Positions 12,981 to 45,384 of a stretch of 64,000 nt of DNA are shown here, piece after piece. The notes beneath the pieces were generated by a model, which ran no database searches, had not been told where the DNA came from, and worked only from the letters and a program-made list of their open reading frames with translations. Both the position numbers and the translations under genes were made by a program. The first letter of the stretch is position 1. Each line of letters opens with the position of its first letter. Source of the DNA: Adineta ricciae (Eukaryota; Rotifera; Eurotatoria; Adinetida; Adinetidae); NCBI GenBank assembly GCA_905250025.1, contig CAJNOJ010000042.1, positions 248,001-312,000 on the forward strand, in the 5' to 3' direction.

Positions 12981-13036
12981 ATCTTTTTCAATAAAATAAT
13001 TAGAAAAGAACATTTCTTATTTGTTTAAATAATCGA

Positions 13037-13054
13037 TTTTCTCATTTTATTTAG
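13037..13054 (+). promoter_or_regulatory. Candidate trans-splice acceptor upstream of HtrL-like gene
   Basis: Pyrimidine-rich TTTTCTCATTTTATTTAG ends at 13054, four bases before the ATG at 13058. The whole intergenic gap is only 77 bases, too short for an obvious independent promoter. Confidence 0.45.
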
Positions 13055-13057
13055 AAT

Positions 13058-14063
13058 ATGGTTGGTAATATTACTCATCATCGACATGTTAATCGCTATT
13101 TCGCCGTCCTACTGATCATTATTATCGTCGTTTGCATACATAAATTTCATTCAGCAGAGGAAGCAAAGAATGAAAAATCAATCACGATTGTTACTGCATA
13201 TTTTCCTCTTGAAAAAGCTACATTCTCAATCAGAATATCTTCAATGGTTAGAAAACCTCTTCTCATTCTGTCAATCACCGATGGTTATATTTACTAGTGT
13301 GAAATTTTATCCAATACTTAATCGATTAAGAAAAAATGGAACATTACCATCTTATTTTATCTTGGATTATGAGACTCCGTTAGAAATGCCTCCTATTAGA
13401 TCGCTTATATCTACTTTTGAACAACAATATCGCATTGATCCTGAACGTTCTTATCATTCGATTGATCTTTATGCTGTGTGGTGCGCTAAATCATTTATGC
13501 TTAATCATACTGTCGAACTCAATCCATTTCAAACAAAATTTTTTCTTTATATGGATGCTGGAGCATTTCGATCATCTAAATACCGTTTTCAAGTGTGGCC
13601 AGATGTGCCAACTCTCAGTAAGATATTAGATAACAATCGATTTCTTCTTGGATTGATCGCTCCACTTTCTCATCAATTTTGTCCTCTTGATTATAAAACG
13701 ACCAATGGTCCGGTCAAAAAAGATCTAATTGAAGCTGGCTTTATGGCTGGTTCGATTGATGCGATTCGTTGGTGGACTTCGGTTTTTTATGAAACAATTC
13801 ATAATTATCGTAAAGAAAACTTTTTCATTGTCAAAGATCAATATATAATTAATGTTATTGCATTAGTTCACTCAAATCATATCAATGTACTTCTACCATT
13901 TCGAAGTTCATGTGGAGATATCTGGTTTGCTTTCGGACCACTTTTTGCTAACAAATATGAAAAAGAAAGTTTGTCATATTCGAATCATTGTCGAATAGAG
14001 AATGTATCAGAACTCATAATCCCTTTTGAAACTGTTTGTAAAGATGAAAGAAATCTTATTTAA
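13058..14063 (+). pseudogene. HtrL/YibB-like putative glycosyltransferase with one frameshift
   Basis: The frame from 13058 encodes a signal anchor (FAVLLIIIIVVCIHKF) and the start of the domain (SITIVTAYF), then loses phase near 13215-13225 at an AAAAA run. The +1-shifted frame continues without interruption to 14063 with YLQWLENLFSFC, PMVIFTS, FFLYMDAGAFRSS, GLIAPLS, EAGFMAGS and the C-terminal WFAFGPLFAN. TIVTAYF, the VIFTS segment and the WMDAG-like acidic motif are the marks of the HtrL_YibB family, enzymes thought to be sugar transferases. One extra A in the run would explain the break, so either a sequencing error or a recent frameshift is possible. Everything else is intact. Same-strand neighbours are GT11 (77 bases before) and GT8 (36 bases after). 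Confidence 0.7.
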
Positions 14064-14070
14064 TTTTGAA

Positions 14071-14078
14071 TTTTGTAG
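14071..14078 (+). promoter_or_regulatory. Candidate trans-splice acceptor upstream of GT8
   Basis: TTTTGTAG ends at 14078 inside the 36-base gap between the HtrL-like stop and the GT8 ATG at 14100. The gap is too small for a separate promoter, so co-transcription with trans-splicing is the simplest reading. Confidence 0.5.
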
Positions 14079-14099
14079 ATAATTATTCATATTCAATCG

Positions 14100-15197
14100 A
14101 TGGGAATACAACTCAAACATTGTTTACTTTTTGCAGTAGCTGTCTTATTGACTTCGACTGGAATTCATTTGCTTCGTCCATTATCAGTGGTGATTGAATA
14201 TAAAATAAAGAAATGTGATTACAATATCACTCCTGTTCTTCGTCCAATGTGTCAACGTGAGGAAAGAATAATTTGTGATAAACTCGATCAAGTAACAATT
14301 TATTCACCATGTTTTCCATCAACTTTACTCGATTCCGAAGTCGCCTGTCATGATAGTTATTCTTGTGATGAACAAACAACGAGAATTGCAACAAAAAATG
14401 TCCCGATAGACGACGTATCTCGAAAAGCATTTTTTAGTGCTTTGTATACCGACAATAATTTCTTGGAAGGAGCAATGCTATTGGATCATACTCTCAAGAA
14501 ATATCATCCTCGTTATCAGATGTATATAATGCATTTTGAAAATGCGTTAAGTAATCGAACATTATGTTCTTTACGACAAATTGGTTGGATACCAAGAGTG
14601 GTAAAGAAGATTCCACCGCCTTTGAAAGGAACTTGGTCGCATTTTATTGATCAGTTTACAAAATTAACATTATGGAATATGACAGAATTCGATTCGATTA
14701 TTTATTTGGATACCGATACTCTTGTATTAAATGATATTTCACATTTACATGAACTTGTAAGTGATCCATCTCGTACAAGATTTGAATTTGCAGCTGTCGC
14801 GGATAATTGGCATGGGAAATTTGCTTACCATTTCAATGCTGGAGTACTTGTTTTACATCCATCTACAAGTGTATTTAATGAATTAATTCGAACAATGAGT
14901 TTACCAGGTAATTATCATCCAACAATGGCTGAAGAAGCATTTCTCAATGCTTTCTATCAACTTCGATATTTACAATTACCACTTATCTACAATGTAAACT
15001 TGGCAATGTATCCGGCTTATCGAGATCTTTGGAAAAGACTACAACGAGATTTTAAAGTTGTTCATTTCACACTAGTCAAACCATTTCTTAAACAATCAAA
15101 CACGGCTTATGATGTTCCTCTAAAAATTTATCAAGACGTTCAAGATGAATATTCGAAAACAAAGATACCTCATCAACTAAAAACAATATGCAACTGA
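14100..15197 (+). CDS. GT8 (glycogenin-like) glycosyltransferase
   Basis: A 365-residue intronless protein with an N-terminal signal anchor (residues about 7-25) and a Cys-bearing stem to about residue 105. The GT8 domain follows: FFSALYTDNNFLEGAMLLDHTL, IYLDTDTLVLNDISHL with the DxD metal/nucleotide-sugar site, FNAGVLVLHPS, and EEAFLNAFY near the end. These match the glycogenin/galactinol synthase branch of GT8, which uses UDP-sugars. The signal anchor and stem suggest a Golgi enzyme acting on secreted or surface glycans rather than cytosolic glycogenin. It closes the glycosyltransferase cluster, 36 bases after the HtrL-like gene, and AATAAA-type sequence occurs about 50 bases after the stop. 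Family assignment is secure; substrate unknown. Confidence 0.88.
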   Translation: MGIQLKHCLLFAVAVLLTSTGIHLLRPLSVVIEYKIKKCDYNITPVLRPMCQREERIICDKLDQVTIYSPCFPSTLLDSEVACHDSYSCDEQTTRIATKNVPIDDVSRKAFFSALYTDNNFLEGAMLLDHTLKKYHPRYQMYIMHFENALSNRTLCSLRQIGWIPRVVKKIPPPLKGTWSHFIDQFTKLTLWNMTEFDSIIYLDTDTLVLNDISHLHELVSDPSRTRFEFAAVADNWHGKFAYHFNAGVLVLHPSTSVFNELIRTMSLPGNYHPTMAEEAFLNAFYQLRYLQLPLIYNVNLAMYPAYRDLWKRLQRDFKVVHFTLVKPFLKQSNTAYDVPLKIYQDVQDEYSKTKIPHQLKTICN

Positions 15198-19944: not shown

Positions 19945-20317
19945 GTTGTCAAATGCTGTAATCTGATAGGCTTGGACAGAGAGACAAACTTTTAGCATTT
20001 CGAGCCGTCGATTTAATCGCTGTATAACCCTTTCTTTCAAAAAAGAGAACTTTCTTTCACATTTTCAATATTTGCATAGCAGTAATCGCATTCTCTACAA
20101 GCATGCTTTTCTCGTTCTTCGGTTGTTATGCATAAAAAAGATAACTCTGCGAATGCAGTAGAAAGAAGAAAGAACACAAAAATCTATCAACGAAGTTACT
20201 CTTTTTATTGTGAGTTAACCGACACAGCATCAAAGCAGAGTGTGTGAAGGCTATAACAACTAGGAGAACAATAATCAGAACTTTCAATACAGTAGACAAA
20301 CGGTCGATCTTCGAAAG

Positions 20318-22807
20318 ATGCAAGACGTCGTTGTGATCTGGCTCGACAATCAGATTGATCATAATAATGCTGATTGTCTGTTTACAATTTCACAACTTGA
20401 ACACATTACTGACAATGTCACTACATTCGCGGATAATGATGAATGTGTCGAATATATACTCAATTGTAATGACCATCAAGTCTATCTAATCGTTTCTGGT
20501 GCACTTGGACAATATCTTGTTCGTTGTATCCACGACATTCCTCTATTACACTCGATTTTCATCTTTTGTCAAAACAAATCATATCATGAACAATGGGCTA
20601 AACATTGGAACAAGATCAAAGATGTTTCCACTGATATAATATCACTCTGCCAAGCCATTCAGAACTCGTTTCCCCAAGCTGAGCCCACTGTCACACCAAT
20701 CAGTTTTGTACCATCTGGCAAAAGATTGTATCTGCTCAATCCATCTTTCATGTACACACAACTCTTCAAAGAGATCTTGTTAACGATCGAATTCGAAGAC
20801 AAACACATCGAAGAGTTTGTCAGGCATCATCCTGGACTAATCACTCTCGATGGTACACATTCTAATGATTTTGAGCAATCAGTACGTGATTACCGTGCAA
20901 AGAACCCCATCTGGTGGTATACAAGAGGTAATTCCTTGCATTCCATGCTCAACGATGCACTAAGAATCATGGATGGTGATGTTCTTGTTCGAATGGGATT
21001 CTTCGTCACTGATCTTCATCGCAACATTGAACAGTTGCACAAAGAACAGTTTGTTAACACATCTTGGAGTCCTCTTGTGTTTACAGTATATCGCGGACAA
21101 GGTCTATCTCACACAGATTTTGGAGAACTAAGAAACACAATAGGCGGGTTGATGTCATTCAACAGCTTCTTCTCTACCAGTATGCAACGGGACGTCTCGT
21201 TATCCTATGCAAAAAGTAACGCAGACAATCCCAAGTTAGTAGGAATTCTCTTCACAATAGAGGTCGATCCTTCTCGGTCAACAACACCGTTTGCCTCAGT
21301 TGGGAATCATGGCCGTTTCTTACAAGAAAACGAAGTTCTATTTTCAATGCACACCGTGTTTCGCATTCATCACATCAAACTCATTGGCACTGATCGCTCA
21401 CTTTATGAAGTGAATATCTCGTTGACTCTTGATTCTGATGAAGACCTACGCACACTGACCGATCATATTCGCCGCGAGAATCATCTCGATGGTAAAGGTT
21501 GGACGCGATTAGGCCAACTGCTCATTCAGTTGGGTCAACATGAAAAGGCTAAGGCGATTTATGATACTTTACTCAACCAAACATCAGATGAAAGTGATAA
21601 AGGATTGATTTATCACCAACTTGGTCGTATCCGACTCATGCAAGGCTTGTTTCAGGAAGCCATAACATTCTATGCCAAATCACTTGTGCGTCTCGAAAAA
21701 TCATTTCCCGCAAACCATCATGATTTAGCCACATCCTACAACGACATCGGCTTGGTATATGACAGGATGGGAGATTATCGAAAAGCACTCGAATACTACG
21801 AAAAAGTTTTTTCCATTGAACAACAATCACTTGCTGCAAACCATCCTGATTTAGCCACATCCTACAACAACATCGGCTCGGTGTATGACAGTATGGGAGA
21901 TTATCGAAAAGCACTCGAATACTACGAAAACGCTCTTTCAATTCAACAACCATCACTTCCTGCACACCATCCTAGTATAGCCAGATCCTACAACAACATC
22001 GGCTCGGCGTATGACAGGATGGGAGATTATCGAAAAGCACTCGAATACTACGAAAAAGCTCTTTCAATTGAACAACAGTCACTTCCTGCAAACCATCCTG
22101 ATTTAGCGACATCCTACCACAACATCGGCTTGGTGTATAATAATATGGGAGATTATCGAAAAGCACTCGAATACTACGAAAAAGCTCTTTCAATTCAACA
22201 ACCATCACTTCCTGCAAACCATCCTGATTTAGCCACATCCTACAGCAACATCGGCTCGGCGTATGACAGTATGGGAGATTATGGAAAAGCACTCGAATAC
22301 TACGAAAAAGCTCTTTCAATTCGACAACAATCACTTCCCGCAAACCATCCTGATTTAGCCGCATCCTACAACAACATCGGCTCGGTGTATAATAATATGG
22401 GAGATTATCGAAAAGCACTCGAATACGATGAAAAAGCTCTTTCAATTCAACAACCATCACTTCCTGCAAACCATCCTGATTTAGCCACATCCTGCAGCAA
22501 CATCGGCTCGGTGTATAATAATATGGGAGATTATCGAAAAGCACTCGAATACGATGAAAAAGCTCTTTCAATTCGACAACAATCACTTCCTGCAAACCAT
22601 CCTGATTTAGCCGCATCCTACAACAACATCGGCTTGGTGTATAATAATATGGGAGATTATCCGAAAGTTCAGCTGTATTGTGAGCGCGCTGTTGAAATTG
22701 GTAAGTGTTCAATGTCACCGAATCATCCGGGCCTGTTAACGTTCGAAAGAAATCTGGAATGTGTTAGAAATGGATTGCAGCACTCTTCTTTTCGTGCTAT
22801 AAAATAA
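20318..22807 (+). CDS. ADP-ribosyltransferase (R-S-E type) fused to TPR repeats
   Basis: An 829-residue intronless protein. Residues 1-130 are an unassigned N-terminal domain. Residues about 150-375 form an arginine-type mono-ADP-ribosyltransferase fold with the R-S-E signature: Arg259 in VYRGQGLS, STS at 286-288 in SFNSFFSTSMQ, and the ExE pair Glu337/Glu339 in LQENEVLF. The enzyme class transfers ADP-ribose from NAD+ to proteins. From about residue 385 come TPRs: two diverged units, then eight near-identical 42-residue kinesin-light-chain-like units (consensus YNNIGSVYDSMGDYRKALEYY), probably a partner-binding solenoid. There is no signal peptide or membrane segment, so it is cytosolic. ART-TPR fusions are a multiplied family in bdelloids (recalled knowledge). 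All catalytic residues are present. Partner and target unknown. An AATAAA-like signal overlaps the stop. Confidence 0.87.
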   Translation: MQDVVVIWLDNQIDHNNADCLFTISQLEHITDNVTTFADNDECVEYILNCNDHQVYLIVSGALGQYLVRCIHDIPLLHSIFIFCQNKSYHEQWAKHWNKIKDVSTDIISLCQAIQNSFPQAEPTVTPISFVPSGKRLYLLNPSFMYTQLFKEILLTIEFEDKHIEEFVRHHPGLITLDGTHSNDFEQSVRDYRAKNPIWWYTRGNSLHSMLNDALRIMDGDVLVRMGFFVTDLHRNIEQLHKEQFVNTSWSPLVFTVYRGQGLSHTDFGELRNTIGGLMSFNSFFSTSMQRDVSLSYAKSNADNPKLVGILFTIEVDPSRSTTPFASVGNHGRFLQENEVLFSMHTVFRIHHIKLIGTDRSLYEVNISLTLDSDEDLRTLTDHIRRENHLDGKGWTRLGQLLIQLGQHEKAKAIYDTLLNQTSDESDKGLIYHQLGRIRLMQGLFQEAITFYAKSLVRLEKSFPANHHDLATSYNDIGLVYDRMGDYRKALEYYEKVFSIEQQSLAANHPDLATSYNNIGSVYDSMGDYRKALEYYENALSIQQPSLPAHHPSIARSYNNIGSAYDRMGDYRKALEYYEKALSIEQQSLPANHPDLATSYHNIGLVYNNMGDYRKALEYYEKALSIQQPSLPANHPDLATSYSNIGSAYDSMGDYGKALEYYEKALSIRQQSLPANHPDLAASYNNIGSVYNNMGDYRKALEYDEKALSIQQPSLPANHPDLATSCSNIGSVYNNMGDYRKALEYDEKALSIRQQSLPANHPDLAASYNNIGLVYNNMGDYPKVQLYCERAVEIGKCSMSPNHPGLLTFERNLECVRNGLQHSSFRAIK
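21715..22720 (+). repeat. 126-bp tandem repeat encoding the TPR array
   Basis: Eight units of 126 bp (42 codons), most pairs highly similar in DNA including synonymous positions; the last unit is diverged. The uniformity indicates recent unequal exchange or gene conversion. Antisense open frames across this array follow from the periodicity and are not genes. Confidence 0.85.
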
Positions 22808-26272: not shown

Positions 26273-26554
26273 AATATTAAAAATTATCACTTCAGAGGAC
26301 TTGCATCCTGAAAACATCATACCTTCCTGTCGAGAAAGCAGATTTTATACGTCGCCAGAAAACAAAAAAACAACCCGTTTCAATGGAGTTCTTCTTTTTA
26401 ATGAGAAAAAATGCGAGACAGAAGAAATCCGTCAAAATAGCTTCACATTCCCACCTTTACAACTAGAAAAAAATTAACACGTTCAGTAAATTTCTCAACC
26501 TTTCCACTTTCACTCTTTCCAGCATTAACTTTCAGATATTCAACGCAATACGGA
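26273..26554 (+). repeat. 5' flank of mucin-like copy 2, homologous to 1-283
   Basis: Aligned with the first 283 bases of the window, with scattered substitutions and small indels. It ends at the start codon, with a T-rich/AG tract in the last 40 bases. Confidence 0.75.
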
Positions 26555-29538
26555 ATGGTCGCGTTAAAAACTTTGTTGATAGGCATAGCCTCCTTCTTTG
26601 GATTTGCTGCAATAGTGGTGGTCCTAGGCCTTATTCCTGTATATACCAAAAGTAATGCCACCACTATCACAGTCGCAACCACAACTACTACAACAAACAC
26701 AATCGCTACCTCAACCACTACCACAACAACAAATGTTTCGCCTACTACAACAGCGTCGACTACAGCAACGTCTACACTAGTAAACACGACAGCCGTAACA
26801 ACAGCCCCCTTAACAAACACCACATTATCTACAACCAACACACCACCAGCCACAACAATAAATACGACAGCAGCATCGAACAACACAACATCATTTATCT
26901 CGAATTCCACGATCACAACTACCGTTATCGCAACGAACACAACCCTGACCTCAGTCAATACAACGGCACCAACAACAATCACACCTGCCAACTCCACATC
27001 GTCAGCGATTACTTCCCTTCCAACGAACACAACCCCAGTTACAACGTATACCACAGTCGCATGGAACAATGGAACATCATCTGTGTCGAACATCACATCA
27101 GCAACTACAATTCTGCCAGGTAACACAACATCTGCCACATTGAATGCCACTGTTGCATGGACCAGTGGAACATCAACAATGTCGAATACTACAGCACCAA
27201 CTACCAATCTACCAGGCAACGCAACGTCTGCTACATTGAATCCCACAACCGCATGGAACAACGGAACATCAACGATGTCGAACAGTACATCACCAACCAC
27301 AATCGTACCCGGGAACACAATCCCGGCTACAATGAACGCCACAGCCGGATGGACCAGCGGAACATCATCCATGTCGAATACTACAGCACCAACTACAAAT
27401 CTACCAGGAAGCACAACATCGGCTGTAATGAATGCCACATCTGCATGGAGCACTGGTACATCATCCATGTCGAATAGTACATCAGCAACTACAATTCTGC
27501 CAGGCAACATGACATCTGTGACAATGAATCCCACAATCGCCTGGAACAACGGAACATCGACCATGTCGTATAGTACATCACCAACTACAAATCTGCCAAG
27601 AAGCACAACAGCAGTTGCAATGAATGCCACAGCCGCATGGACCAGCGGAACATCAACCATGTCGAATACTACAGCACCAACTACAATTCTGCCAGGGAAC
27701 ACAGCATCTACGACAATGAACGTCACTGCTGCATGGACCAGCGGAATATCAACGATGTCGAATAGCACAGCACCAACTACAATGAATCCCACAACCGCAT
27801 GGAACAACGGAACATCAACCATGTCGAATAGCGCATCAGCAACTACAATGAATGCCACTGCTGCATGGACCAGTGGGACATCAACAATGTCGAATACTAC
27901 AGCACCAACTACCAATCTACCAGGCAACGCAACGTCTGCTACATTGAATCCCACAACCGCATGGAACAACGGAACATCAACCATGTCGAATACTACAGCA
28001 CCAACTACCAATCTACCAGGCAACGCAACGTCTGCTACATTGAATCCCACAACCGCATGGAACAACGGAACATCAACCATGTCGAATACTACAGCACCAA
28101 CTACAATTCTGCCAGGGAACACAGCATCTGCGACAATGAACGTCACTGCTGCATGGACCAGCGGAATATCAACGATGTCGAATAGCACAGCACCAACTAC
28201 AATGAATCCCACAACCGCATGGAACAACGGAACATCATCCATGTCGAATAGCGCATCACCAACTACAATGAATGCCACTGCTGCATGGACCAGTGGAACA
28301 GCAACAATGTCGAATCCTATAGCACCAACTACAAATCTGCCCGGGAACGCAACATCTGCGACAATGAACCCCACAGCTGCATGGACCAGTGGAACAACAG
28401 CAATGGCGCATACTACATCACCAATTACAATTCTGCCAGGCAACACAATGTCTGCTACATTGAATCCCACAACCGCATGGAACAACGGAACATCATCCAT
28501 ATCGACCACTACCGGGGCAGCTACAGTTGTGGCGAGCAACACAGCTGTCTCTGCAGCGAATACGGCGACGGCAACCACTGGCACACTGATGAATAGCACG
28601 GTTGTAGCTATGTTAGCAGGTACTAGTGCAGCTAGTTCTACGATCGGAACGGGGGGAAATATCACGGGAGGATCTACAGTAGAAATGATGGGAACATCTG
28701 TTCCAATCGTAACAGCTAGTAGCACACCAGTAGCGAGTACAACGTTTGAAGCTGCTGGAATGGAAATGAATGTATCCGCCGATGTGACAATGGTAGGATT
28801 AACGGATACAGCAGTATATACTACCGCTGCAAGTACGGTAAGGCAGTCTGTGAGTGTGAGTGCGGCAACAGGTACAGCGACTAGTACAATGCATATACAT
28901 TCCATTGAGGCAACATCAACGATAATGATGTCAAGCATGAGCTATCCAGTTCTTAGCTCCACAGGTACGAAAAATGTACGTAGAGAGATGTAGATGTGTG
29001 GAAATCTGTTTAGATTACGGTATTAAAACTACTGTTTCAGCAACTCAAACAGGATCAACATCTGGAATGACACTAAGCCCAGTGGCCATAGTTTCTAGTA
29101 TTGGTGTACTAACAACATCAGGTACGTAAAAATAGCTAGAATATTCAATAGTGAGAAAGTCTGACAAATAGTTGTTACTTAAGGCATGCTTGTCGAATGT
29201 AACAAGTATTAATATTGTGAAACACAAATATATCTCGGGTAATTTTGATCCTAGTAATACCCAACATGCTTATAAAGAGATTTCGAGCATAGAATCAATT
29301 GAGTGTTATAATGGTTTTGCTTTGATATATGAAACATTCCGAGATATATCGATCGTGTATGACCTTGATAATCAATATTTCTCTATGTAGATTCTAAGTA
29401 TTCAACTGACTGAGATATTCAAAAGGAAAACCTTTTTTTGATGAAACTCAAATCATCTATTTTTATTCAATAGCTACGGTATTATCGACGATGAGTGCAA
29501 CGTCCCAGTCTACTTCAGCCATGAAAACAACCACTTAA
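26555..29538 (+). CDS. mucin-like Thr/Ser/Asn-rich membrane-anchored protein, copy 2, three exons
   Basis: Exons 26555-28964, 29041-29121 and 29474-29538 join in phase (all junctions phase 1) to give about 851 residues ending TSQSTSAMKTTT. Residues about 5-28 form a signal anchor almost identical to copy 1. The ectodomain is a Thr/Ser/Asn/Ala-rich array of about 28-30-residue units (TTILPGN, TSATMN, AAWTSGTS, TMSNTTAPT) with very many N-x-T/S sequons. Some units are identical over more than 100 bp, so the array is actively homogenised. A densely glycosylated surface or extracellular mucin-like protein is inferred; there is no enzyme domain. Exon 2 and its splice sites are intact here but not in copy 1, so this is the functional reference copy. 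The very long antisense frame over exon 1 is a codon-composition artefact. Confidence 0.78.
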
Positions 29539-32500
29539 ACCATTCACTTCGTTCTCAATTCACTCAAAATCTCTGTGTTTTTCATTGTTCTCTTCGCTGT
29601 GATATGGAATTTGTAAGAATACACGCACTCGCACGACAAAGAAACAACGAAAGTAGCAATCATCGGTTATGTGACTGTTATGTTCGTCTCATCTTTTTTC
29701 GTCGAACAGATGTTGTCGCCAACTTGTGCATTGCTCGTGCTCACATCACTATTCCGGAAGAAGAGATATGGATGTATTTTGGATGACCTCTGTCTGTGCG
29801 TAGAAAAAAAAGACGAGGAGGAAAAGAAGAGGAAAGAAATTTGAGCATATATTTTCTCTTTCTCTCATGTCTGTGTATTCGAACTGATGACGGATGTTTG
29901 TACGGTGAGTGAACAATAGATTTTTGAGTGAAAAAGAAAAAGCTTCCAACCATCATCGATCGATGGAAGCTATTCAAACTGAAGACGATATGAGTAAGTG
30001 TACTTTTGATAGATTTTGTTGATCTTCTCTAAAATCACAATGTTTGCATTTGTTCAATCATGGAATTCAATTGTTCGTTGTTAAAATTGACGAAAGATAC
30101 GAATCATAATAAATGCCCTAGATATGTACATACATGATGACGAATGAAATTTGTCATTCTACCTTGACTTCGATGTCAAGGCTATTTGCTGTATGTATTA
30201 ACAGTAAACCTTGCTTCATTGATTAATTATGTAAATTAGATATTAATTGATTAGTTAGTTAGTTAAACATTCTAATGCCAATTTCTGTTCGTTCACAATG
30301 AAAGATGACGTTTCAAAGACAAATATTTGAAATAGTTGTTCAGGTGCGACATGTGAGGATGATTGGTTGTTACTCTAATGATTAGAGCTCGTTTTTTGCT
30401 TAGTGCTTATCGCCTGCGGCTTACAAATAAACGACTATAGCATCCATTTTCTACCTACGAATGAGCATGAAAAAGAAAATAAAGAAAAGGTATTCGCCAC
30501 TCAAAATTTTTACAATAGAAACTGTATCTATACCTAGCAGCAGTCATAACTAATCAACCAATGTCCAAATATAATCCATCCCTGATCACATGCATGAGCG
30601 ACATATAGTGTAGAGTAATCCTCTGTCTGTCTCTCTTTTTCTAAAGCCGAATATGATTGTTTGTTTCTTCTAATTATACTCAATGGTGAGACTCCACTTG
30701 AGAAATTTTTAATAAACGATGGTAAAACATCTGTTCACAGAAACAAATTTCCTTGCTCTGATTACATGATTATATAGAAGAGGTATGTATTATTAGTGAT
30801 AATCAAATTTGTTTGAATATTCTGGTCTATCTATTCTGCAGAATATACGTCAGACAATCGAATCAGACTCGCTGAAAACGTCATTTTGTTCCTTTGTTTT
30901 ATCTTTCATATCATTATCTGAGAAGATTTGTATATATGTCTGCAAATTTTATTACTGATAAGAAAATAACTAAAATCGAGAGCATGTTCATTTATTTATT
31001 GAATGATGTTCTCTCAAACGTATATCTTTACCAAAAGATAATCAATTCACTTGAGTGATGGTTCACTCTATAATTAGTGAAAGGTCGCCAGTTGATTGTT
31101 TTTCCTTGATACCATATATTCATGTACATGCATCTACCATTCGTACGTATGCATGACTGTCTGTCTACTTCTCATGTTCTAATTGCATGCGACGACATCC
31201 TTTGTTCATAAGGTAGATGCTTGTCCATTCATTCTCGATGTATATTAGCCATGCAAGCTCTTTTTTTTAATCAACCAACTAAGTATCGTCGTCAGAGTGG
31301 TGCTCGTCCATCGACAACGGTGAGAACAATCATCGTCATCATCCTCTATCACTCGAGTTACCCACTTGAACAGCCTCTTTCCTCTCCTACTCGTCGTTTG
31401 TAGATGGCCTAATAATACTCGATATATGTGTATATGTATAGTTTGTTCAGTATGAAGTAACAGCTGACCCCCTTAAGGCCATTTCTCTGTTCCTTGTCGA
31501 ACGTTCACACGTCAAAAATTTGCCTCATGAACATTTTAATTTGTAAGAGTAGACATGGACTTCAAAAGATAAGACAATTGAAAAACAGTTGACCGTGAAT
31601 CCGCCGATGAGAGATATGAAACGATAATCAGGAAAATGAAGACGTAAGTGTCATCTACGATTGCGTTTTATTTTCCTATTCAGACATAATCAGAATATCA
31701 TCATTTCTTCTCGTACAATTACATTGAATTCTATTCAGGTGCAGTGAACAAACGTGTGAATCTTTACAAATAGAAAGACGAGATGATACATGATTACATC
31801 ATTCTTCGAACATAAATAAAGAGAAAGAGACAACTAAATCTATAGTCGATGTCTTCTCATCGCCGTCAATTTCAATAAGACTGCTAATCAACGAAACGAT
31901 CTTCTATGACGCAAACACACTTCATTTGCTTTGACTATTCTAGAAATATTTGTTACTCACTTATACAAACTTCGTCACAGAAACTAGCATCTTTTTCCTT
32001 TTCTTTTTCTTCTTTCTTTTTTTTTGTTCATGTTTGCATATGAAGAGTTTTCGGTCGTGCCAAGGTCTGTTTGTTCCGGTTTGAATAATCTTGCCTTCTC
32101 TATTTCTTTCATTAACAAAATTCAATTTGTTCCTCTAAATACATGCATGTGCTGGTCATCGTGAGAAAGCAACGAACTGCTATTCCTTTTCAGCAAAAGG
32201 TTATTCTCCCAGTTAGTATCATTGCTTTCTCTTCGTCACTGTCGATGTCGTCTTCTCCTTCTTCTTCTTCTTTTTCATGTTCATGTGCTACAAGTCATCG
32301 TTTTCCGGTTGATGCTGATGGTGTCTGTTATTATCCCTCTACTATGCGTCTTCATGCTCTTCTTTTCTATCTTCGTCGTTCTGATGACGATTATCGACGA
32401 CTAATTGTATATGGTTGTGAGCGCAAAGCAGAAGAGAAGAGCAGAGAGGCAGAGAGAGAGAGAGAAAGAATGAAAGACGGGAAGAAAAAGAAAAAAAAGA

Positions 32501-34339
32501 AATAAGCACACATACACCCAACATAGCTGTTCATCGACCAAAAGAAGAAGGAGAAAGCAGTGTGCGTCCACTACCATCACCGACCGTGTCGAAGAATTGT
32601 TCACACGCACGTATATAGAGATTTTCTTTTCTTCTTTTGTTAGTGATCATCTTATTCGCATATCTCCTTTAATATTCATGTTCATCTAATTATAAAGTTG
32701 CACACACACATGCACATAATATAACAATGATGTAAGACTTATCATATGTAAGCTTGTCTATCGACTTTGAAATATAGACTACTGCATTTTTACTAGTCAA
32801 CCATGACGATGATATGTCTGTCTGTGTTTTTATTCTTCTTTCTCTCTCTCTCTTTCATTTTCATTGTTACTCCCCTTTTCCCTCAGCTATGATCATAAAA
32901 TTGACTTTTTATATTTCCTTTTCTTTTGTATGTCGATTTGAGTTCATCTAACATGCATGAAAACGACTCATAGTACATCGATCATTTGCCCAGTCAACAG
33001 CATTCTGCAATACGAAAAGATTAAAACGATGACCAGTCATCGATCATATTTTATTTTAGACGATCTCTCTACATGCGCACACACACATACATTTATAGAA
33101 ACGATGTAGTCATCAATCTGTGGGTGATGAAGATGTCGACTTAATAACGAGTTTCGTGCATGGTCGAACATTCTTCACCTATATAATGATGCACTCTCTC
33201 ATTGTTTCTTTTTCTCTCTTCGTTGTGTCTTCTTCACTGTTCTCTCCTCGGTTTTTTTTTAAAACATGAAAGAACCGAGTGAGTATCTATGAGCTATGAA
33301 ATGAAACAGATGAATTCCGGTATGTGTGTGTCTTTGAAAGAGAAGGAGAGAGAAAATAACTTTCCGCTTGTTTGTTTCAAGGTATCTTATTTATTCACAT
33401 CGCGTTCATTGAAACATCAAATAGATTATAAACACAATTTATATAAACAGAACCTGCTCTCACATCTTCTTCTATTTTAGTTTCTTTATCCTCCAATTGT
33501 CATTTCTTTTCTTCTCGCGTCGTTTCTTTACGCTTCATGCAAATATTGTTTGTTTGAGTAACACATAACACTGTTGCTTTCGCTCGTCGCGATGAGCTGT
33601 ACGTGACTTTCCAATTGATCAACAAATATTCTATCTTTGCCTTGTCTATTCGCATTGCTCATACGCGTCTTATTGACAAGCGGGAGAAAGCCGCAACAAT
33701 GTCGGCATCAGTTCAATCACAGACAGGCATATTGCATGTCCTGACTTATGTATGTATACGCGTACATTTTTCCGATAACGCTTATTGTTATTACCCCTGT
33801 TGATAAATGCCCGCTTGCACAGACATTTTTCATCTGATTCTCTCTTTCTCTTCTCGTTTTCTTTCCCATATTTTCTAATGAACTGAAAAAGAAAACGAAG
33901 AACTCGTTACTGTAGGATGAACGTTGAGTAGTTGTAATAATACGAGCAGTGCTCGTAATTCTTTATGATCCAGTTTAGACACAAAGAGAGAGAGAGAGAA
34001 AGAACCCGAGTAAAGCCTAAAGCGAGCGATAATGTTTATATACACGGAAAAAAGCGTTCATGCTATGTTCACTATATTATTGCATGAAGACATTCTCATC
34101 TTTATTTTTACTCTTGTTTGACATTATGCAAGTAACCTTTTCCTACATATTTATGAATAAATGGAGCCATACAAAATGATGCACCCCTACCTATTCTCTC
34201 CCGTGGCTCTGACTAATAGTTCTTCGATTTCCGTTCATTCTTACGCGATCATCATCATAATCAATCTAATTTGCTTTTCTATTCTAGATATGTTAGCAGC
34301 CTTTTAATACACACATTGAAGAAATCCAATAGAACTACG
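29539..34339. other. 4.8-kb region upstream of the receptor kinase, probably promoter and 5' introns
   Basis: No coding gene recognised. Two exon-like ends with GTAAGTG donors occur at about 29964-29997 (a short frame starting MEAIQTEDDM) and about 31620-31644. A good acceptor lies at about 34290, 50 bases before the receptor start, so long 5' introns are plausible. Pyrimidine tracts, (AG)n near 32448-32470 and 33985-34000, and A-rich runs are frequent. Confidence 0.4.
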
Positions 34340-37300
34340 ATGAAAATATTCTGCGCATTATTTGTTTTACTTTACACTTCAACAATATCATCACTTGAAT
34401 TGAGTAAATATTTATTTATGTCATTTTTCTTCATCCTTGTTTTCGTCTTTGTTTTTAGAGAAACTATCCAGTTGTCAAACAGCATTGGGCATGCAATCAG
34501 GTTCGATACCTGATTCGGCAATTTCCGCTTCGAGCAGTTACGATTCTAATAGTGTTGGACCAAAAGCTAGTCGGTAAGTGAATAATACCGACATGTTTCA
34601 ACGTAACAGATGGAATTACATCATTGATTTTCATCTGCTCTTTTCTCTATTCTTGAGTACATCAACAATAAGACATTGATGACTACTCATCATTCACTTG
34701 TCATTTAACAGAAGGAGAGCCTTGTTCATACATAGATGATGAGAACATCCCATGTAACTTCTGTGGAAAAAAAAGGAAAAGAAATGACATGGAGAAAAGA
34801 ATAACATATGAAATCTATCCCTTAGGCATCCAATTGCATGACAAAAAGATATATATTCCTTTCTATTTTGTCTCTCTAGAGCTCGTACTGAACAGTATGG
34901 TGGAGCATGGTGTCCATTAAATCAAATAACGTCAATACTAAATGAATGGTTGGAAATTGATTTCGGAAATCTAACTTATTTAACGCAAGTAGAAACTCAA
35001 GGTAGATTTGATAATGGACGAGGCAAAGAATACGCCGATTACTACATCTTGATGTACACTCGATCGAATCAACCTACTAATGATATTAAATCATGGATTG
35101 AATACAAACCTCAGATCATTAGTAATGACGAGTTGAATTCATCATGGATACATGCTAATCAGAATACATACATGGGAGAAATACGGCCATTAAGTATGTT
35201 AAAATTATTCAATTGTAACATGAGATATTGATTTACTTTCTAGATCCACCCATCGTTGCTAGACGACTTCGATTCTATCCTGTTAGTAAGCAAACTCGAA
35301 CTGTTTGTATGCGCGTTGAAGTGTATGTAACATTCACTTGAATTTAAAGTAAACCTATTACATCTTCGTATTATTCTTTAGTTATGGTTGTTTATTTTCC
35401 GATGGTATTGTTTCATACACAATGCCACAAGGCCGAACGGATATAAATTCATTAGGTGATGACACGTACGATGGAAAATACATTCCCGAAACGAATATGT
35501 TAGTCGATGGTCTCGGACAATTGTCTGATGGCATCACAGGTTCGGAAGATATGTCATTAGTTGATGGTCGACAACCATGGGTAGGATGGTCAAATGATTC
35601 GAATACACATGTAACAATAATATTTCAATTTGATTATATACGTCAAATGAATCGTGTGACAATCCATACGAACAATGTCTTTTCGAAGCAGATTTCACTA
35701 TTTAAAACAGCAGTAGTCACATTTTCTTTAACTGGTGAACGAACAAGTTATTCAAATGCAATTATATCCGAACAAAATCGTGACGAATATTATGAAATTG
35801 CTCGTCCTATATTGATTCAATTGAATAATCATGTTGCCAAATATGTACGATTAGATTTATATTTTGATTCCAAATGGCTTCTAATCAGCGAAATAACATT
35901 TGACTCGCAAATTTATAATGAGAAAATTGAAACTAAAAACGAAGATTTATTTATGGGAGATCTTGCCAAACAGCAGCAGCCTTTATTTGATCCGATGAAA
36001 ATGATGACAGATCAACGCAAACGCAATCGTAATGTACTGCAAACGACACTATCAACTGAAACTACAACGAAATCATTACCATCAACACATTTCTCCAATC
36101 TAATCACAACGGAACTATCACTAGCGTTCTTTATCGGAGCATCGTTGGCTATTGGACTTCTATTACTTGTTTCACTAGTGTGGCTCATACGACGAAAGAA
36201 AAAACTTCAATTTCAAAAGTAAATTCATAAAATATTTCGAAAAAGAGTATCCTAATAGTATTATTTTTTAGATTAACAGAAAAACCATGCAATAATTCAT
36301 CATGTTATACTTATCCAACGTTACCAATCCGCGAATTTCATGATTTGAATGCGCCGATTACTAGTGCTGTTGATGATCGCGAATATGCTGTGCCTGATAT
36401 TAACTTCTACTCTACATTTGCTCATAGTCCACATTTAAATCATCACAAAAAATATATTACACCTCTATCGTCTGCCTCATCCTACACTTGTAGTCCACGA
36501 CTAATTCGGCCGGCAAATATTAACTGCTACCCGACATTAAAGACTCTTCCATCTCAACATTGTTGTATTCATCAACAATATTTAACCATGCAGCATTGTC
36601 AACCATCGATAACAGTCAATCCGAATCGAGTTTTACCTCCGTCTGTCGTCGATGAACTTGCTACGATTGAAGGTCCTTGTGGAAATAGTTTAATGATGAA
36701 ATTCAATTCTATGGTTGATACTCAGTTAATAACTATCAAAGAGATCAATTCTGATGATATAAATATCATGGAAAAAATCGGTGACGGACTTTTTGGAAGT
36801 GTACATGTTGGAGAAATGAAACTGAATGGTGGTGAAAGACAAACTGTTCTAATTAAATCCTTACAAGAAAGTACAGATGAAAAACAAAAGTAGGTGTTTT
36901 TGTATCGTGAAGATCTCTATAGTCAATTATAAAATTTCTGTTGTTTTAGATCGGTATTTTCGAAAGAAATTGAATTATTGTCACTGATTAACGATTTTCA
37001 CGTATGTTCACTATTGGGCGTTTTGAATAATCAAAGAACAGTTGCCATATTCGAATATTACTCACTTGATCTATACCAATATCTCCGTCAACAATTGATA
37101 CCAATGGATAGTTGTTCAGCATCGAGTTTTCTTCTCTCCTTAGCTTGTCAAATCGCGTCAGGAATGAAGTATTTATCATCAAATTCGATTATTCATCGTG
37201 ATCTAGCCACCAGAAACTGTCTAATATCCACAACCAATCTGCAGATACACATTACAGATATTGCCATGATCAAAACCGACTATGCTAATGATTATGCGCG

Positions 37301-37685
37301 TGTAGGACGTTTGCAATCACGCATACCTCTACGATGGGCTGCATGGGAAACCATATTTCTCAATCAATTCTCATTGAAATCAGATGTCTGGTCGTTTGGC
37401 GTGACACTCTACGAAGTCTATACCTACGCTCGTCAACGGCCTTACCATGCACTGACAAATGAACAACTCGTTCAACAATTCGCTTCCATATCTCAGGGAC
37501 AAATAGCATTGAATCCGCTTGTTTCATTGCCGAAACCGGAATTATGTTCAAAAGAGATTTATGACATGATGTGTGAATGTTGGCAACGAGATGCTCAATA
37601 TCGTCCATCATTTGCTGATATTTATACATTTTTGCAGGGAAGAGCATCTGGCTCCGCCCCATTGGTCACAACCGAACAATTGTAG
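34340..37685 (+). CDS. Discoidin-domain receptor tyrosine kinase (DDR-like)
   Basis: Seven exons (34340-34403, 34459-34573, 34880-35193, 35244-35322, 35382-36218, 36272-36889, 36950-37685) join in frame to 920 residues, about the size of vertebrate DDR1/DDR2. Order: signal peptide (KIFCALFVLLYTSTISS), discoidin domain (CQTALGMQSGSIPDS... RRLRFYPV ... CMRVEVYGC), DS-like domain, single TM (FFIGASLAIGLLLLVSLVWLI), juxtamembrane region, tyrosine kinase domain. In the kinase: Gly loop 640-647 (GDGLFGSV), Lys665 (VLIK), HRDLATRN at 758-765, and PLRWAAWE, SDVWSFGVTLYE and CWQRDAQYRPSF. DDRs are collagen receptors controlling adhesion and matrix remodelling. The DFG motif reads D-I-A (779-781): the Mg-binding Asp is kept but Phe and Gly are lost, so catalysis is uncertain. 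Confidence 0.92.
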
Positions 37686-38201
37686 AAAGGAAAGACATCA
37701 ATTAGTATTTCTATAAACGTGCAGAGTTTTGCGATTATGTTAGTTTTTTATTTTTCATTTTGTACTTGCGTGTGTGTGTGTGTGTCGCTTCAGTCAGATT
37801 TCTTATTCGAGTTCATGTATGTATGTATACGCGTGTGTTTGTAAATAGAGATTATCTTGATGATGACGATTATGAAATAATAAAAATCTTGACAATTATT
37901 TGAACTCTCTTATGTGCACAAGTGATTGTGAGTTTTATGGATTAGGATATTATCTATTAGAAATTATGTAACATACGCATCTTGAAATATTCCTCGACAA
38001 GCCGATGTTGACTGACATCTTGCGAAATAATTCTCATTCGTCAAGCAAGGAAATGTCAACAATCTGATAAATTATCATCATAACATAACGAACGAAAAGA
38101 AGATGTTTATTTCCGGATATTGAACATGACTTTCAAAAAAGAATCCAACGAAGAATAATGTTTAATTGATACGATCTAACAGTTGTTCGAAATAAGTATC
38201 A
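37686..38201. other. Intergenic, 3' UTR and upstream region
   Basis: Contains a (GT)n microsatellite near 37770-37790 and AATAAT/AATAAA-like poly(A) signals near 37878. No gene. Confidence 0.5.
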
Positions 38202-39976: not shown

Positions 39977-41554
39977 TTAACTGTATTTAGGAACGTAGTG
40001 CTTTTGTCCATCTTTGATAATACTACGTGTATGCATTGTTAATAAGGAATTGAATTCTGCACTTGACGTGGTTAAACTCGTTAAGAATGGTTCTAATTCT
40101 GCTAATGTCCAAAGATTTTTCCGAGTAAATAATGATTTGAGTCTAAAAATTGATAAGATCATTGTTCACAATCCCTTCGATTCAATCAATCAATTACCGT
40201 TCATCAGGTTTTTCGCTAAGTGTATCCATGTCTATGTAGGCAATCGTATCTTCAGAATGAATGACATATCCTTTTAATTGCTCGAGATCAATTGAAAATT
40301 CACTAGGTACACATTCTCTCCAACATGTCATAAATTCGGATAATTTCATCTACGAGAAAAGGTCAACTTTAATGCAATCAATTCGAAATATTGCTATTAC
40401 TTTCTCTAAATTTCGTAGTAAGTCCAGTGCATAATGAATAGATATTGTGATAGCATTTAAAGCGATTGAATTCCCTATAAAATGAATTCTGCTTACGAAA
40501 AATTCGCTAAATCGCTTACCCTCTGTGGAGATTGTTCCAATTTGTTCTAGAAATTGCTTGGCAACAGATCTGTAATCATTATTATTATCGAAAGGAGAAA
40601 AGAAATGTTTAAGATGAACATTTACTTTGGACACATTTCTTTCATTTCCGACGCACATTTATCAATTGGAATATCATCTTTTGACCAATCATGAATTGAT
40701 ATTAACGAGAGGATGTATTCGATAAGTTTTGTACGAAAATCAAAATCTAAGAGCCGTAAATGACCTAAATAAAAAGACGATGACACTATCAAATAGATTT
40801 CAGATTAACGAACCATCAACAGTAATCGCATTGAGTTTTTTTAAATACGCATCGATGGCTTGGTCACTTGCTTGAACTTCATTTTTCAAGTCATTCACAG
40901 TGATCTGCATTGAAGAACAAGATAAATATTTACCATAAAATGAAAGTAATTTAATACTTTTCGTGCCAGACTGTTCTCATCATCATCATCAAACCGACCT
41001 CGATAGGGATTTTCTTCCAATAATTGCCGTATACGTCTTAATTTTGGTACGCAAGGTGTCAATTCATATTTGGCGTGAAGAATTGAATTGACCTGAAGAA
41101 TTCTTTCATCGCGATTCCAAAAGAGAACTCGTTCGGTTTGAATTACTTTTAATGAAACACATCCATTTTCTTTATTCGATAAGGAAGAATCGAGTGGACT
41201 AGCAAGTAGTAGTGTATTCGATGTTTCAGCTGTTTTCATTTCGAAAATTTGATCTGATGTACATAATGTCGCAAAATCGTCATGCGTGCCACGAATGACT
41301 AGTCTAGATAGATGATTGACAAAGAGAGATAACTTCGAACGCAGTTCTCTTTGAAAACGAATGCGTTACTTTTGATTCTTATCTAATTCTTCAATCAATG
41401 CACTGTTCACTTCCATCAATCGAATAGAATCATCTGGAAAGTGTTCACCGATCGTCAATTCATAATACACTGGTTTCAATTGTTCCGTTGGTAGTCTGGC
41501 ATCAGCTAATAGTTTTTGTACATTTTCGGGGAAATGTGTTATCTCGTCGGTCAT
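39977..41554 (-). CDS. DSCC1: Sister chromatid cohesion protein DCC1
   Basis: Eight exons on the minus strand (41554-41370, 41303-40958, 40904-40814, 40764-40626, 40569-40520, 40474-40401, 40349-40198, 40142-39977) join in frame to 400 residues (human 393). Matching segments in order: LVIRGTHDDFATLC, MKTAETSNTLLLASP, LRRIRQLLEENPYRG, HLRLLDFDF, LSEFMTCWRECVP, LEQLKGYVIH, and the C-terminal winged-helix region KSLFTRKNLWTLAELEPFL ... KYS. DCC1 with CTF8 and CTF18 forms the alternative RFC clamp loader that loads PCNA, links to polymerase epsilon and supports sister chromatid cohesion. Introns are about 50-65 bp. Its ATG lies 176 bases after the urease-like stop, behind a CTCCTCCAG acceptor, so it is probably the last gene of an operon. 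Confidence 0.92.
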
Positions 41555-41563
41555 CTTATCGAT

Positions 41564-41574
41564 CTGGAGGAGAA
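41564..41574 (-). promoter_or_regulatory. Candidate trans-splice acceptor upstream of DSCC1
   Basis: On the minus strand a TTCTTCTCCTCCAG tract ends at 41564, nine bases before the DSCC1 ATG and inside the gap after the urease-like gene. Confidence 0.45.
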
Positions 41575-41730
41575 GAATTATATCAAATCTGACTTATGGA
41601 AGAAGTTTAAAAAAATAGAGAATGACGCAAAATTTCATATAAAAACAACAGCGAAAATTTCTTTTTTTTTGTCTATCCTGACTAGTTATCTATGCTTTGG
41701 AATTAACAGATACACGAATACAAATAACAT

Positions 41731-44700
41731 TCAAAATATAAAGTAACGTTGAGCTAATGGTAAGCGAGTGGCGAGCGGTAATGATTCACTGACAGTTTTC
41801 TCTCCATCTTTTTCGATGGTGATCTGACCCGTTGCTTGATCCACGTCAACTTTTGGTGTCTGTTCATTTCGAACCATATGCAAACGTGTGATCATACGAA
41901 TATCGTGGACGGCTTCGACATGTTTGCATATACCATATGAATTTGATGCACTCAGTTCTGCACATGCCTTAATAAACAATGGAGAATTGTCATTCGTTTC
42001 AGGATGAAACAGAAAGTTACTTTGGAGACGAATACGATGGAATTAGCATTTGGACTTCGACCAACAGCGCCGAATTTTTTTCTCAAACAAATCGGCTCGG
42101 GTTTGACGTCAGCGTAAACACCAAGACCAGATTGAGACCAGGATATTTGGCCGCCTTTGATGATCATTTCTGGTTTCACACCAAAAAACATGGGCTGCCA
42201 GAGAACAAGATCAGCCATTTTATGTTGTTCGATCGAACCAACGACATGAGAACAGCCGTGCGTTAATGCTGGATTTATTGTATATTTAGCTATATATCGT
42301 CGAACACGATTATTGTCGTTTGAATTTTCCTATGAAAGGAAAATATTGACTTGAGTATTTCGAATCGACCAAACTTTGTTTTCATCATACTTTGTCTTCG
42401 GATAAATAGCCTGTGATAGCTTTCATTTTGTCTGCTATTTGCCATGTTCGTGAGACGATTCGACCAGGATGACCACCTGACTACAAAGAACCGAACAAGT
42501 TATTGATCGATGCTCCACTTGAAATATTCTTAGGTTACTTGTGATGATGATGAAATAATACTAATTGCTCCAATGTCATGAAGGAGATCTTCTACAGCCA
42601 GTTGTCTTTGACTCTCTCTAGAGAACAAAGTATGCACGATTCATTTGAATATCTTTAAAAGTGAATAGAGATTTCTACCCAGGTTGACGATAAACAGCTG
42701 CTTTGTTATTACATGAGGTTATGATAACATTTGGTTGTTGAAGTAGATCAAAGAAGTTATTACGAGCTGCTGCTGTTTCTGTACATGGAATGAGAACAAC
42801 ACGATCACGAAAGATTCCAACAGCATCTGGAGAGCTATAAGCTTCTCGTAAACTATCAAAGTCAGCATGAACCTGAGGAAGACAAGATCCAGTTTGAAGA
42901 ATACAGTTTCAGCTAGATAAAAATTTGTAAACTCACGCTTATATCATGAAATTCAGCAACACGCAGGCAAGTATCGATAGCCGAAGGCGTCGCTCCCCAT
43001 CGTTCATCTAATCGTAGGCTATTTAAAAAGCTTGCATATAATTCAAAATCATTTTTAGATAAGAGAATTCGAACCCAATGGCACCAGCAACAATTTGATC
43101 TTCAAGTTCTTTTGATAAACCTTCAGGCTTCGATGTATTTCCTTTGCCATAGAAACCGAAGTTCATTGGATAATCATCTGTTGCCTGAATCATGTGTTTA
43201 ATATGATTCGGGCCAGGTGTAGCCATCGTCACGCTACCATTCATTCCTGTACCACCACCGAACATTGTTGTTATACCACTCATCAACGCTTCGGTGACAA
43301 CATCAGGTGAAGTAAAGTAAGCGCATGGATCAATCCCACCAGCTGTTACGATTAGATTTTCGCCTTGAATTACTTCTGTTCCAACACCAATAATCATGCC
43401 CTGAAAAAAGAATATCATGACGAGTATATATCGATAAGAAAACTTAGAATAAACATCTTCATGCCGACATACCGCAGTAACACCGGACATTGTCTGAGGA
43501 TTACCAGCTTTTCCAACACCAGCAATTACACCATCCTAAATAATGAATGTCGAAGTTGAACTGTACATTTTAGGAAAATTACTTTAATGCCAACATCCGC
43601 TTTCACTATACCAAGAACGGCATCAATAATAACAACATTAGTTATGACTGTATCCAATGCTACATCATTTCGTGTATTTGACGCTTGACCCATACCTTCC
43701 CTTAAAACCTATCAAATTATTTCGTATATTCTCTAAATAGTATCAGAAAAAAATTTCTACAAACTTTTCCTAGACCAAAAACACATTCTTCACCATAAGT
43801 GGTTAAATCATTTTCAATTTGTATGATTAAATTCGTATCACCAAGCAAGACCTATACATATATAACAGAGAGGACTTTCATCATTTGTATACACTCAAAT
43901 GCGCATTACTCGATCGCCTGTTGTTGGTCCATAACGACCAAGATACAAATCGCGAGGAATGGGATATTTAGTTTGACGAGAATTTGCCTTCTCGATACTA
44001 GTCTTTTCATCGACATGTAGGAAATTATTTTTTCGTAGATTCTTTTGATTCTTCTTCAGATTTTCATCGCTTACAGGACCGTCGAATAATCCGTTACCAC
44101 CATGAATTATCCTAAGTTCAATGCAGAAATAATTCACCGGATTCTACATAAATTCTAATTGTATTCACCTTTGTCCACCAATAGGTATGAGTGGCACTTC
44201 TTTTTGTTCATTCGGATTAAACGTTAAGATATCACCTGCAGGAATATTCTAGCAAATAAATCGAATGCACACTAAGAAACAATAGTAATCTTCTTTACCA
44301 ATCGCATTCCATAAGCGAGTGTGCGATCGAATGCTAGATGTCTATTTGCTTCAACGAAATGGAAATGGCTTCCGATTGATATCAATTCGCTACTTTCGTT
44401 TGAAACTGTGATGTATATGCTATCTCGATCAGCATTGATAATAATCGGCTGATTGTCTTTTAGGAACATTTCACCTGGATGTGGTCCTGTTTCAGTATCA
44501 TTTTCTTTCTAAATAACATAGGCAACATCAAATATATCTTTCGAGTTAAACAAATGTGCTTTACTTGAAATAGATCAGGTGATGGAACTGGTAGGAAACT
44601 TCCATAAAAAGCTAATTCTAAGTCACCTGTATCATTACATATTGGATTTCGAACGGTCATCTTTAACGAAATCAAATGAAAATAAAGCTAAGTGAGAATT

Positions 44701-44993
44701 CACAAGTAACTTACGACTTTCACACCATCTGGAAATGTAGCTTCAAGATTAATTTCTTTGATCATTTGTGAAACGCCGTTTAAAACCATATTTTTTCCGA
44801 GAATTTTCTTAGCCTGTTGTTGAATGTCAGTTAAACTAGATTTGCCATCGCGGATGAATTCTAAACACTGTGTTGATATAAGTGCTACCGCTTCTGGATA
44901 ATTTAAACGTAGACCACGAGCGAGTCGTTTTTGAGCCAGTGAACCTGCATAACTAATTTTTAAGTTTTCAAATTCACGTTCAGTTAATCGCAT
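41731..44993 (-). CDS. Urease homologue with degenerate nickel centre (probable pseudoenzyme)
   Basis: Fifteen phased exons (first 44993-44715, last 41967-41731; introns 46-71 bp) encode 819 residues in the fused order of plant and fungal ureases. Gamma-like: residues 1-~125. Beta-like: 126-~245 ([17 protein letters not shown]). Alpha-like: the rest ([50 protein letters not shown], terminal QRYFIF). Normal urease hydrolyses urea with two Ni ions. Here HxH is C407-A-Y409 (GIDPCAYF), the carbamylated Lys is Arg492 (GLRLDERWG), the second nickel-1 His is Cys547, and the Asp ligand is Ser606 (ISSSSQ). The other His may survive as His519. The roughly 30-residue flap with the catalytic His is deleted, explaining the shortfall from about 840 residues. 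No stop or splice defect is visible. Urea hydrolysis is unlikely; function unknown. Confidence 0.9.
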
Positions 44994-44996
44994 GAT

Positions 44997-45007
44997 CTGA
45001 AAAAGGA
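44997..45007 (-). promoter_or_regulatory. Candidate trans-splice acceptor upstream of the urease homologue
   Basis: On the minus strand ATCCTTTTTCAG ends at 44997, three bases before the urease-like ATG, in a gap of only 55 bases after the UQCC2 stop. Confidence 0.5.
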
Positions 45008-45048
45008 TAATAGGACAAATTAAAAGATGTGCTAATTTTTCTTCGATT

Positions 45049-45384
45049 TTATTTGAGTTTTTTCATGAAATCTCGGTTAGCTTGAAGACTTTTATTTGAA
45101 AGGAGAAAACGTAATTGTTCACGACTCAAACCCGATGCTGTCCAATTGCGTTCGCGTGGATAACGATTTTTAATATCGTTTGATATGATTAATTTCATAC
45201 TATCATAGAATTGGTTCCATTCGTTAACATTCACTTGAGAATTCTCGCCAAGTGCGAATGCTTTGGAAAATTGTTCTCGTAATCTTTCGCCGAGATCACG
45301 ACCTGTTTTCGATTTATCAATTGGCCATTGTTTAAACAGACGTATTAAGTCGAAGTATAGTTGTGATGCGGTACGTTGTGCCAT
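45049..45384 (-). CDS. UQCC2: Ubiquinol-cytochrome c reductase complex assembly factor 2
   Basis: A single-exon 111-residue protein. The core LIRLFKQWPIDKSKTGRDLG followed by ERLREQFSKAFALGENSQV, then YPRERNWTASGLSREQLRFLLS, aligns with human UQCC2 (mitochondrial nucleoid factor 1), including the GRDLG and GEN(T/S)QV motifs. UQCC2 works in the mitochondrial matrix with UQCC1, binding newly made cytochrome b during complex III assembly. It is upstream of and close to the urease homologue (55-base gap) on the same strand, with an AATAAA signal right after its stop, so it should head the operon UQCC2 - urease homologue - DSCC1. Confidence 0.85.
   Translation of the reverse strand: MAQRTASQLYFDLIRLFKQWPIDKSKTGRDLGERLREQFSKAFALGENSQVNVNEWNQFYDSMKLIISNDIKNRYPRERNWTASGLSREQLRFLLSNKSLQANRDFMKKLK

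Follow-up and report, generated by a model that had tools for sequence, protein, structure and literature searches.

The bdelloid rotifer Adineta ricciae carries, on the minus strand of the window analysed here (a 64,000-nucleotide stretch of contig CAJNOJ010000042.1), a gene whose product is a urease-family member in sequence but, judged by the residues of its active site, is not a urease enzyme. We hold with very high confidence that the encoded protein is non-ureolytic, and it is likely that a eukaryotic-type urease, with its gamma, beta and alpha parts fused into one chain, has here turned into a pseudoenzyme and been retained in a non-catalytic role.

The gene runs from 44993 to 41731 in 15 exons, with 14 intervening GT-AG introns that are each 47-72 nt long, and the joined exons provide 819 codons with no internal stop in a frame that ends in TGA (Table 1). 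The first-pass annotation had described 15 exons in phase with a full gamma-beta-alpha layout, and a reconstruction from the minus strand arrived at the identical ends (44993 and 41731) and the same 819-residue frame. The exon borders were set by hand from the reading frame, the GT-AG dinucleotides and urease motifs; because they were partly chosen by GT-AG, the presence of these dinucleotides at the introns does not constitute independent evidence. The G+C content at the three codon positions is 0.54, 0.40 and 0.26, compared to 0.30 in the gene's own introns. At the protein level, the Pfam models Urease_gamma, Urease_beta, Urease_alpha and Amidohydro_1 all score above their cut-offs, as do the NCBIfam models for the gamma and beta domains, and the three domains which place the protein in the urease sequence family follow one another in the order known from jack bean. 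The score for the NCBIfam equivalog of the urease alpha subunit, TIGR01792, falls short (549 bits against a cut-off of 680), and that for the broader subfamily model NF009686 exceeds its threshold (595 against 354). The best matches among solved structures are the ureases of jack bean (PDB 3LA4) and pigeon pea (4G7E), which likewise consist of a single gamma-beta-alpha chain; identity to the jack bean enzyme is 52% over the alpha part compared.

Table 1. Positions of the urease homologue, its exons and the adjoining genes within the window.
Feature	Position	Strand	Content and basis
UQCC2-like complex III assembly factor gene	45049..45384	-	one exon; 55 bp upstream of the urease homologue
Gap between UQCC2 and the urease homologue	44994..45048	-	55 bp; AATAAA overlaps the UQCC2 stop; CCTTTTTCAG ends three bases before the ATG of the urease homologue
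Urease homologue	41731..44993	-	15 exons, 819 aa; manual exon joining, Pfam
Exon 1	44715..44993	-	aa 1-93, gamma domain
Exon 2	44565..44660	-	
Exon 3	44299..44508	-	beta domain
Exon 4	44169..44248	-	beta domain
Exon 5	43910..44111	-	end of beta, linker, start of alpha
Exon 6	43765..43851	-	alpha N-domain
Exon 7	43583..43708	-	alpha N-domain
Exon 8	43473..43535	-	alpha N-domain
Exon 9	43075..43400	-	barrel; carries C407-A-Y409
C407-A408-Y409 codons	43317..43325	-	at the position of the His-x-His nickel pair; hand-counted from the exon 9 start
Exon 10	42937..43018	-	R492 for the carbamylated Lys; D494 for the second-shell His
Exon 11	42679..42872	-	D521 and C547 for two His ligands
Exon 12	42539..42617	-	S606 for the Asp ligand; flap missing around the exon 11/12 junction
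Exon 13	42391..42480	-	
Exon 14	42021..42329	-	
Exon 15	41731..41967	-	C-terminus; stop TGA
DSCC1, first part (Dcc1 domain)	40895..41554	-	two exons read; ATG 176 bp downstream of the stop of the urease homologue

The nickel site and the flap

The active site was read from an alignment of the rotifer protein with jack bean urease and 66 bacterial ureases of less than 90% mutual identity. These derive from the best 80 of at least 589 confirmed urease loci in the prokaryote collection, each with an alpha subunit (80/80); two loci on viral contigs, which matched the gamma domain only and were without an alpha subunit, stand outside these counts. Jack bean urease retains all six of the residues which we take to be its nickel ligands (four histidines, the carbamylated lysine and an aspartate), whereas the rotifer protein retains none of them (0/6), the replacements being His407 to Cys, His409 to Tyr, Lys490 to Arg, His519 to Asp, His545 to Cys and Asp633 to Ser in jack bean numbering. 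The columns occupied by rotifer C407, Y409, R492, C547 and S606 hold His, His, Lys, His and Asp, respectively, in jack bean and in at least 65 of the 66 bacterial ureases. These five losses had been named in the first-pass annotation (the HxH pair replaced by C407-A-Y409, the carbamylated lysine by Arg492, a nickel-1 histidine by Cys547 and the aspartate ligand by Ser606), and each was found at the place claimed for it. The inventory was nonetheless incomplete, as the sixth loss had been overlooked: jack bean His519 corresponds to Asp521 of the rotifer in a part of the alignment that is free of gaps, and the rotifer has a histidine, H519, two residues earlier. The second-shell histidine (jack bean His492) is an aspartate as well, Asp494.

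The deletion of the mobile flap and its catalytic histidine, also claimed at first pass, is borne out. In the flap segment (557-591) 28 of the 32 invariant columns are changed or deleted, and the column of jack bean 593, which is His in 66/66 of the bacterial proteins, is deleted in the rotifer. As residues 550-611 of jack bean appear as X in the alignment, the flap is compared here with the 66 bacterial proteins. The span between C547 and S606 is shorter than that of jack bean by a net 29 residues (87 nt), and given that the introns in this region measure 61 and 58 nt, the flap is not concealed within one of them. An assembly or splicing error is an unlikely source of the lost residues, because four exons (9 to 12) carry the changes and no intron close to the flap is long enough to contain it. 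Alignment to bacterial and plant ureases upholds the erasure of the nickel centre.

From established urease chemistry, a protein from which the bridging carbamylated lysine, the histidine ligands and the flap are gone would be expected neither to hold the nickel pair nor to hydrolyse urea, and the rotifer homologue almost certainly makes no use of nickel. That urea hydrolysis might persist in some unusual form, by way of residues that have migrated, is scarcely credible; rotifer H519 does lie two residues before the lost histidine position, and there are other pseudoenzyme families in which catalytic residues have migrated (PMC10211241), but all six ligands are gone, as is the flap that would carry the catalytic histidine, and no maturation genes were matched in the animal's own genome by searches of limited power. 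It is somewhat less far-fetched, if still improbable, that a new metal site has formed, in which C407, D494, D521 and C547 would bind another metal (e.g. zinc or iron) in the service of a different hydrolase. All four are metal-capable residues at ligand or second-shell positions and the amidohydrolase superfamily changes metals readily, which speaks for such a site; the loss of the flap speaks against it.

Constraint along the protein

Columns of the alpha part were considered invariant when identity among the 66 bacterial proteins reached 97% or more (n=193), and 70 of these are changed in the rotifer, compared to 6 of the 160 scorable in jack bean. By segment, the proportion of invariant columns changed in the rotifer is 2/40 at 269-400, 4/15 at 401-434, 2/8 at 435-486, 17/32 at 487-556, 28/32 in the flap (557-591), 6/17 at 592-625, 1/28 at 626-700 and 10/21 at 701-819. 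The fold core (269-400 and 626-700) accordingly shows 3/68 changes against 27/64 in the ligand segments (401-434, 487-556 and 592-625), with a Fisher p of 1.5e-7 from a test confined to these five segments, whose borders were drawn after the changes were known. Going by these columns, the erosion is local rather than uniform, with the fold core kept and the active-site region changed.

The rotifer protein has also changed elsewhere. At the C-terminus, 10/21 invariant columns differ in the rotifer and 3/21 in jack bean, while among columns at least 95% identical the counts are 13/43 and 4/43, respectively, in the gamma domain, and 8/34 and 1/34 in the beta domain. In a FastTree phylogeny of 504 columns, rooted at the midpoint, the rotifer protein groups with the two plants (support 0.91) on a terminal branch of 0.88. 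In view of this branch and the changes beyond the active site, the protein as a whole is fast-evolving; as the two plants are the only other eukaryotes included, the tree does not separate descent from horizontal transfer.

Neutral point substitution was simulated in 400 runs that started from the present coding sequence and continued until 24 of the 61 active-site positions had changed, as they have in the gene. The simulated sequences acquired a mean of 16.6 stops (minimum 5), compared to 0 in the actual gene, and a mean of 26.5 changes in the 68 core columns (minimum 9), compared to 3/68. Uniform neutral decay is rejected. The gene has no stop and its erosion is local, so that neither the broken frame nor the uniform loss of constraint by which a pseudogene is recognized is present; what is seen is one of the marks of a pseudoenzyme, with catalytic residues lost and a fold that, judged by sequence, is kept. 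A young pseudogene, in which function and constraint have been lost and the frame happens still to be unbroken, would account for a single-copy gene whose partners go undetected and whose evolution is fast overall (70/193 invariant alpha columns changed). We nevertheless consider it very improbable, since none of the 400 neutral runs ended with fewer than 5 stops or fewer than 9 core changes, where the gene has 0 and 3, and since the frame can be joined through all 14 GT-AG introns. It may also be that function was lost very recently, following a long phase as a pseudoenzyme.

The first-pass annotation had further suggested selection for a non-ureolytic role. The loss of nickel chemistry contained in that claim stands on the six replaced ligands and the missing flap, and the selection contained in it is supported indirectly, by the intact frame, the local erosion, the rejection of the neutral simulation and the operon-like placement of the gene. 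We are highly confident that selection keeps the gene, or formerly did so. As a retained pseudoenzyme, the protein would still fold and assemble into a urease-like oligomer, would be expressed from a spliced-leader operon together with UQCC2 and DSCC1, and would be preserved for a non-catalytic job, most likely that of a structural scaffold or of a protein whose remodelled pocket binds a small ligand; that its role is one of these two has, in our estimate, an even chance of being right.

Nickel and urea in the rotifer and in other organisms

A separate active urease, which the first-pass annotation had suggested looking for along with the accessory genes, did not come to light in a search of limited power, in which neither the Pfam alpha model nor the full protein matched a second urease in the animal's own 130-Mb genome. 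Exon-by-exon reading of the same genome likewise gave no match to UreG (sought with the family model and a bacterial protein; prokaryote controls 6/14 positive), UreF (2/14), UreD (3/14) or, for nickel uptake, NicO/NiCoT (5/14). The power of these accessory-gene searches is limited, as introns split the genes and the controls are prokaryotes, and an empty result with the bacterial UreG protein, without a positive genome, shows nothing by itself. UreF and UreD are, in addition, poorly conserved. A CobW-family gene was recovered by the same method in two exon pieces; it was not taken for a UreG, its locus resembling, on inspection by eye, the ZNG1/CBWD type of animals. As such, the absences of the accessory genes are suggestive and do not amount to proof.

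Urease-family genes are present in other animals, as in the rotifer. A 2009 survey reported no nickel transporter for the orphan ureases of Aplysia and sea urchin and left their nickel use unclear (PMC2667541), and urease sequences are given for Nematostella, Branchiostoma and Ixodes in a 2011 survey (PMC3073912). Furthermore, a study of an acanthocephalan transcriptome classed 23 proteins as nickel ureases/hydrogenases and termed them highly conserved in Acanthocephala and Rotifera (PMC12274423). The present gene bears on a question already raised in print, that of continued nickel use by the orphan ureases of animals (PMC2667541). Pseudoenzymes in general, pseudokinases among them, have lost catalytic motifs and kept non-enzymatic functions, as set out in a review from whose main text the word urease is absent (PMC10211241). 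Among the matches listed, open-access titles and abstract openings on animal, rotifer, orphan or inactive urease contained no animal urease pseudoenzyme. If our reading is true, the rotifer possesses a urease pseudoenzyme in which all ligands are replaced and the fold-core sequence is kept, and with it a natural test of a nickel-free urease scaffold. Bdelloid rotifers can be cultured.

In the Saccharomycotina yeasts nickel urease has been lost and urea amidolyase is used instead (PMC3073912). The rotifer resembles them in that no nickel-urease pathway was found and that its genome contains pieces of urea carboxylase along with a gene for allophanate hydrolase; it differs from them in retaining the urease scaffold. 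The urea-carboxylase model found 22 places on nine contigs, none above the family cut-off (18 of 50 candidates scored), and some of these matches will be other biotin carboxylases. On contig C404 an allophanate hydrolase gene lies beside a urea-carboxylase copy as two frames, the larger scoring 551 bits (above cut-off), which cover model positions 2 to 562 of 563, are separated by what appears by eye to be a 55-nt GT-AG intron, and lie in AT-rich sequence (32% G+C). Partial urea-carboxylase copies, 94-99% alike where they overlap, occupy C404:40500-50000, 28000-37900 and 61000-67500. Two tandem urea-carboxylase-like copies, both without model positions ~297-579, are found at C220:99000-117400. 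None of the copies read on these two contigs forms a whole, intact urea carboxylase, and with those of C404 partial and those of C220 lacking their middle, they do not constitute a proven alternative route.

It is possible that the C404 genes represent an acquired, nickel-free urea route. The 2011 survey did not find urea carboxylase in the 3 animal genomes that it covered, noted two Hydra urea-carboxylase sequences in a general database, one of them from a putative bacterial symbiont, and placed the amidase, among eukaryotes, in fungi and green algae only (PMC3073912). A more sweeping proposal, and one we consider doubtful, is that bdelloids dropped nickel-dependent urea hydrolysis, took up the carboxylase/allophanate route and turned the one urease they had into a protein that does without nickel, perhaps with a new Cys/Asp site for a metal or ligand, and that is coexpressed with the mitochondrial complex III factor UQCC2.

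Gene neighbourhood and other features of the window

UQCC2, the urease homologue and DSCC1 follow one another on the minus strand (40895-45384), with gaps of 55 and 176 bp. The CCTTTTTCAG ahead of the urease homologue may be a trans-splice acceptor, which it resembles, and CTCCTCCAG ends nine bases before the ATG of DSCC1. A 23-base pattern which we take to be the bdelloid spliced leader has 41 matches in the 130-Mb genome, each with a single mismatch that falls on its first base, and none when read backwards. Two bdelloid species share an identical 23-nt leader exon, borne by more than half of transcripts, and the same work did not find the exon in the monogonont rotifer studied (PMC1925144). 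Closely spaced neighbours on one strand, an acceptor-like AG before the ATG and a leader-bearing species, as would be expected of a spliced-leader operon, are all present, though such AG motifs may also occur by chance. The three genes look like a candidate spliced-leader operon, with putative trans-splicing.

UQCC2 gives a single match in the genome, as does the urease homologue, and an ohnologous copy of the region was discarded on that ground. The animal-type genes nearby comprise UQCC2, DSCC1, a discoidin-domain receptor kinase and a cytochrome b558 alpha-type protein; because such genes flank the urease homologue on both sides and the homologue itself has 14 introns, bacterial contamination is ruled out.

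Several other features of the window may be mentioned. At 191-2506 and 26441-28993, long frames are open on both strands and consist mostly of 96-nt repeats, Thr/Ser/Asn-rich by eye and mucin-like; the two plus-strand frames scanned in these regions had no Pfam match. Four consecutive plus-strand frames occupy 11261-15197, three of which match glycosyltransferase families 92, 11 and 8, with the remaining one weakly resembling HtrL/YibB at a score below cut-off. Last, a plus-strand frame of 847 aa at 20264-22804 contains tetratricopeptide repeats and is in part a 126-nt tandem array of 7.7 copies that are 90% alike.
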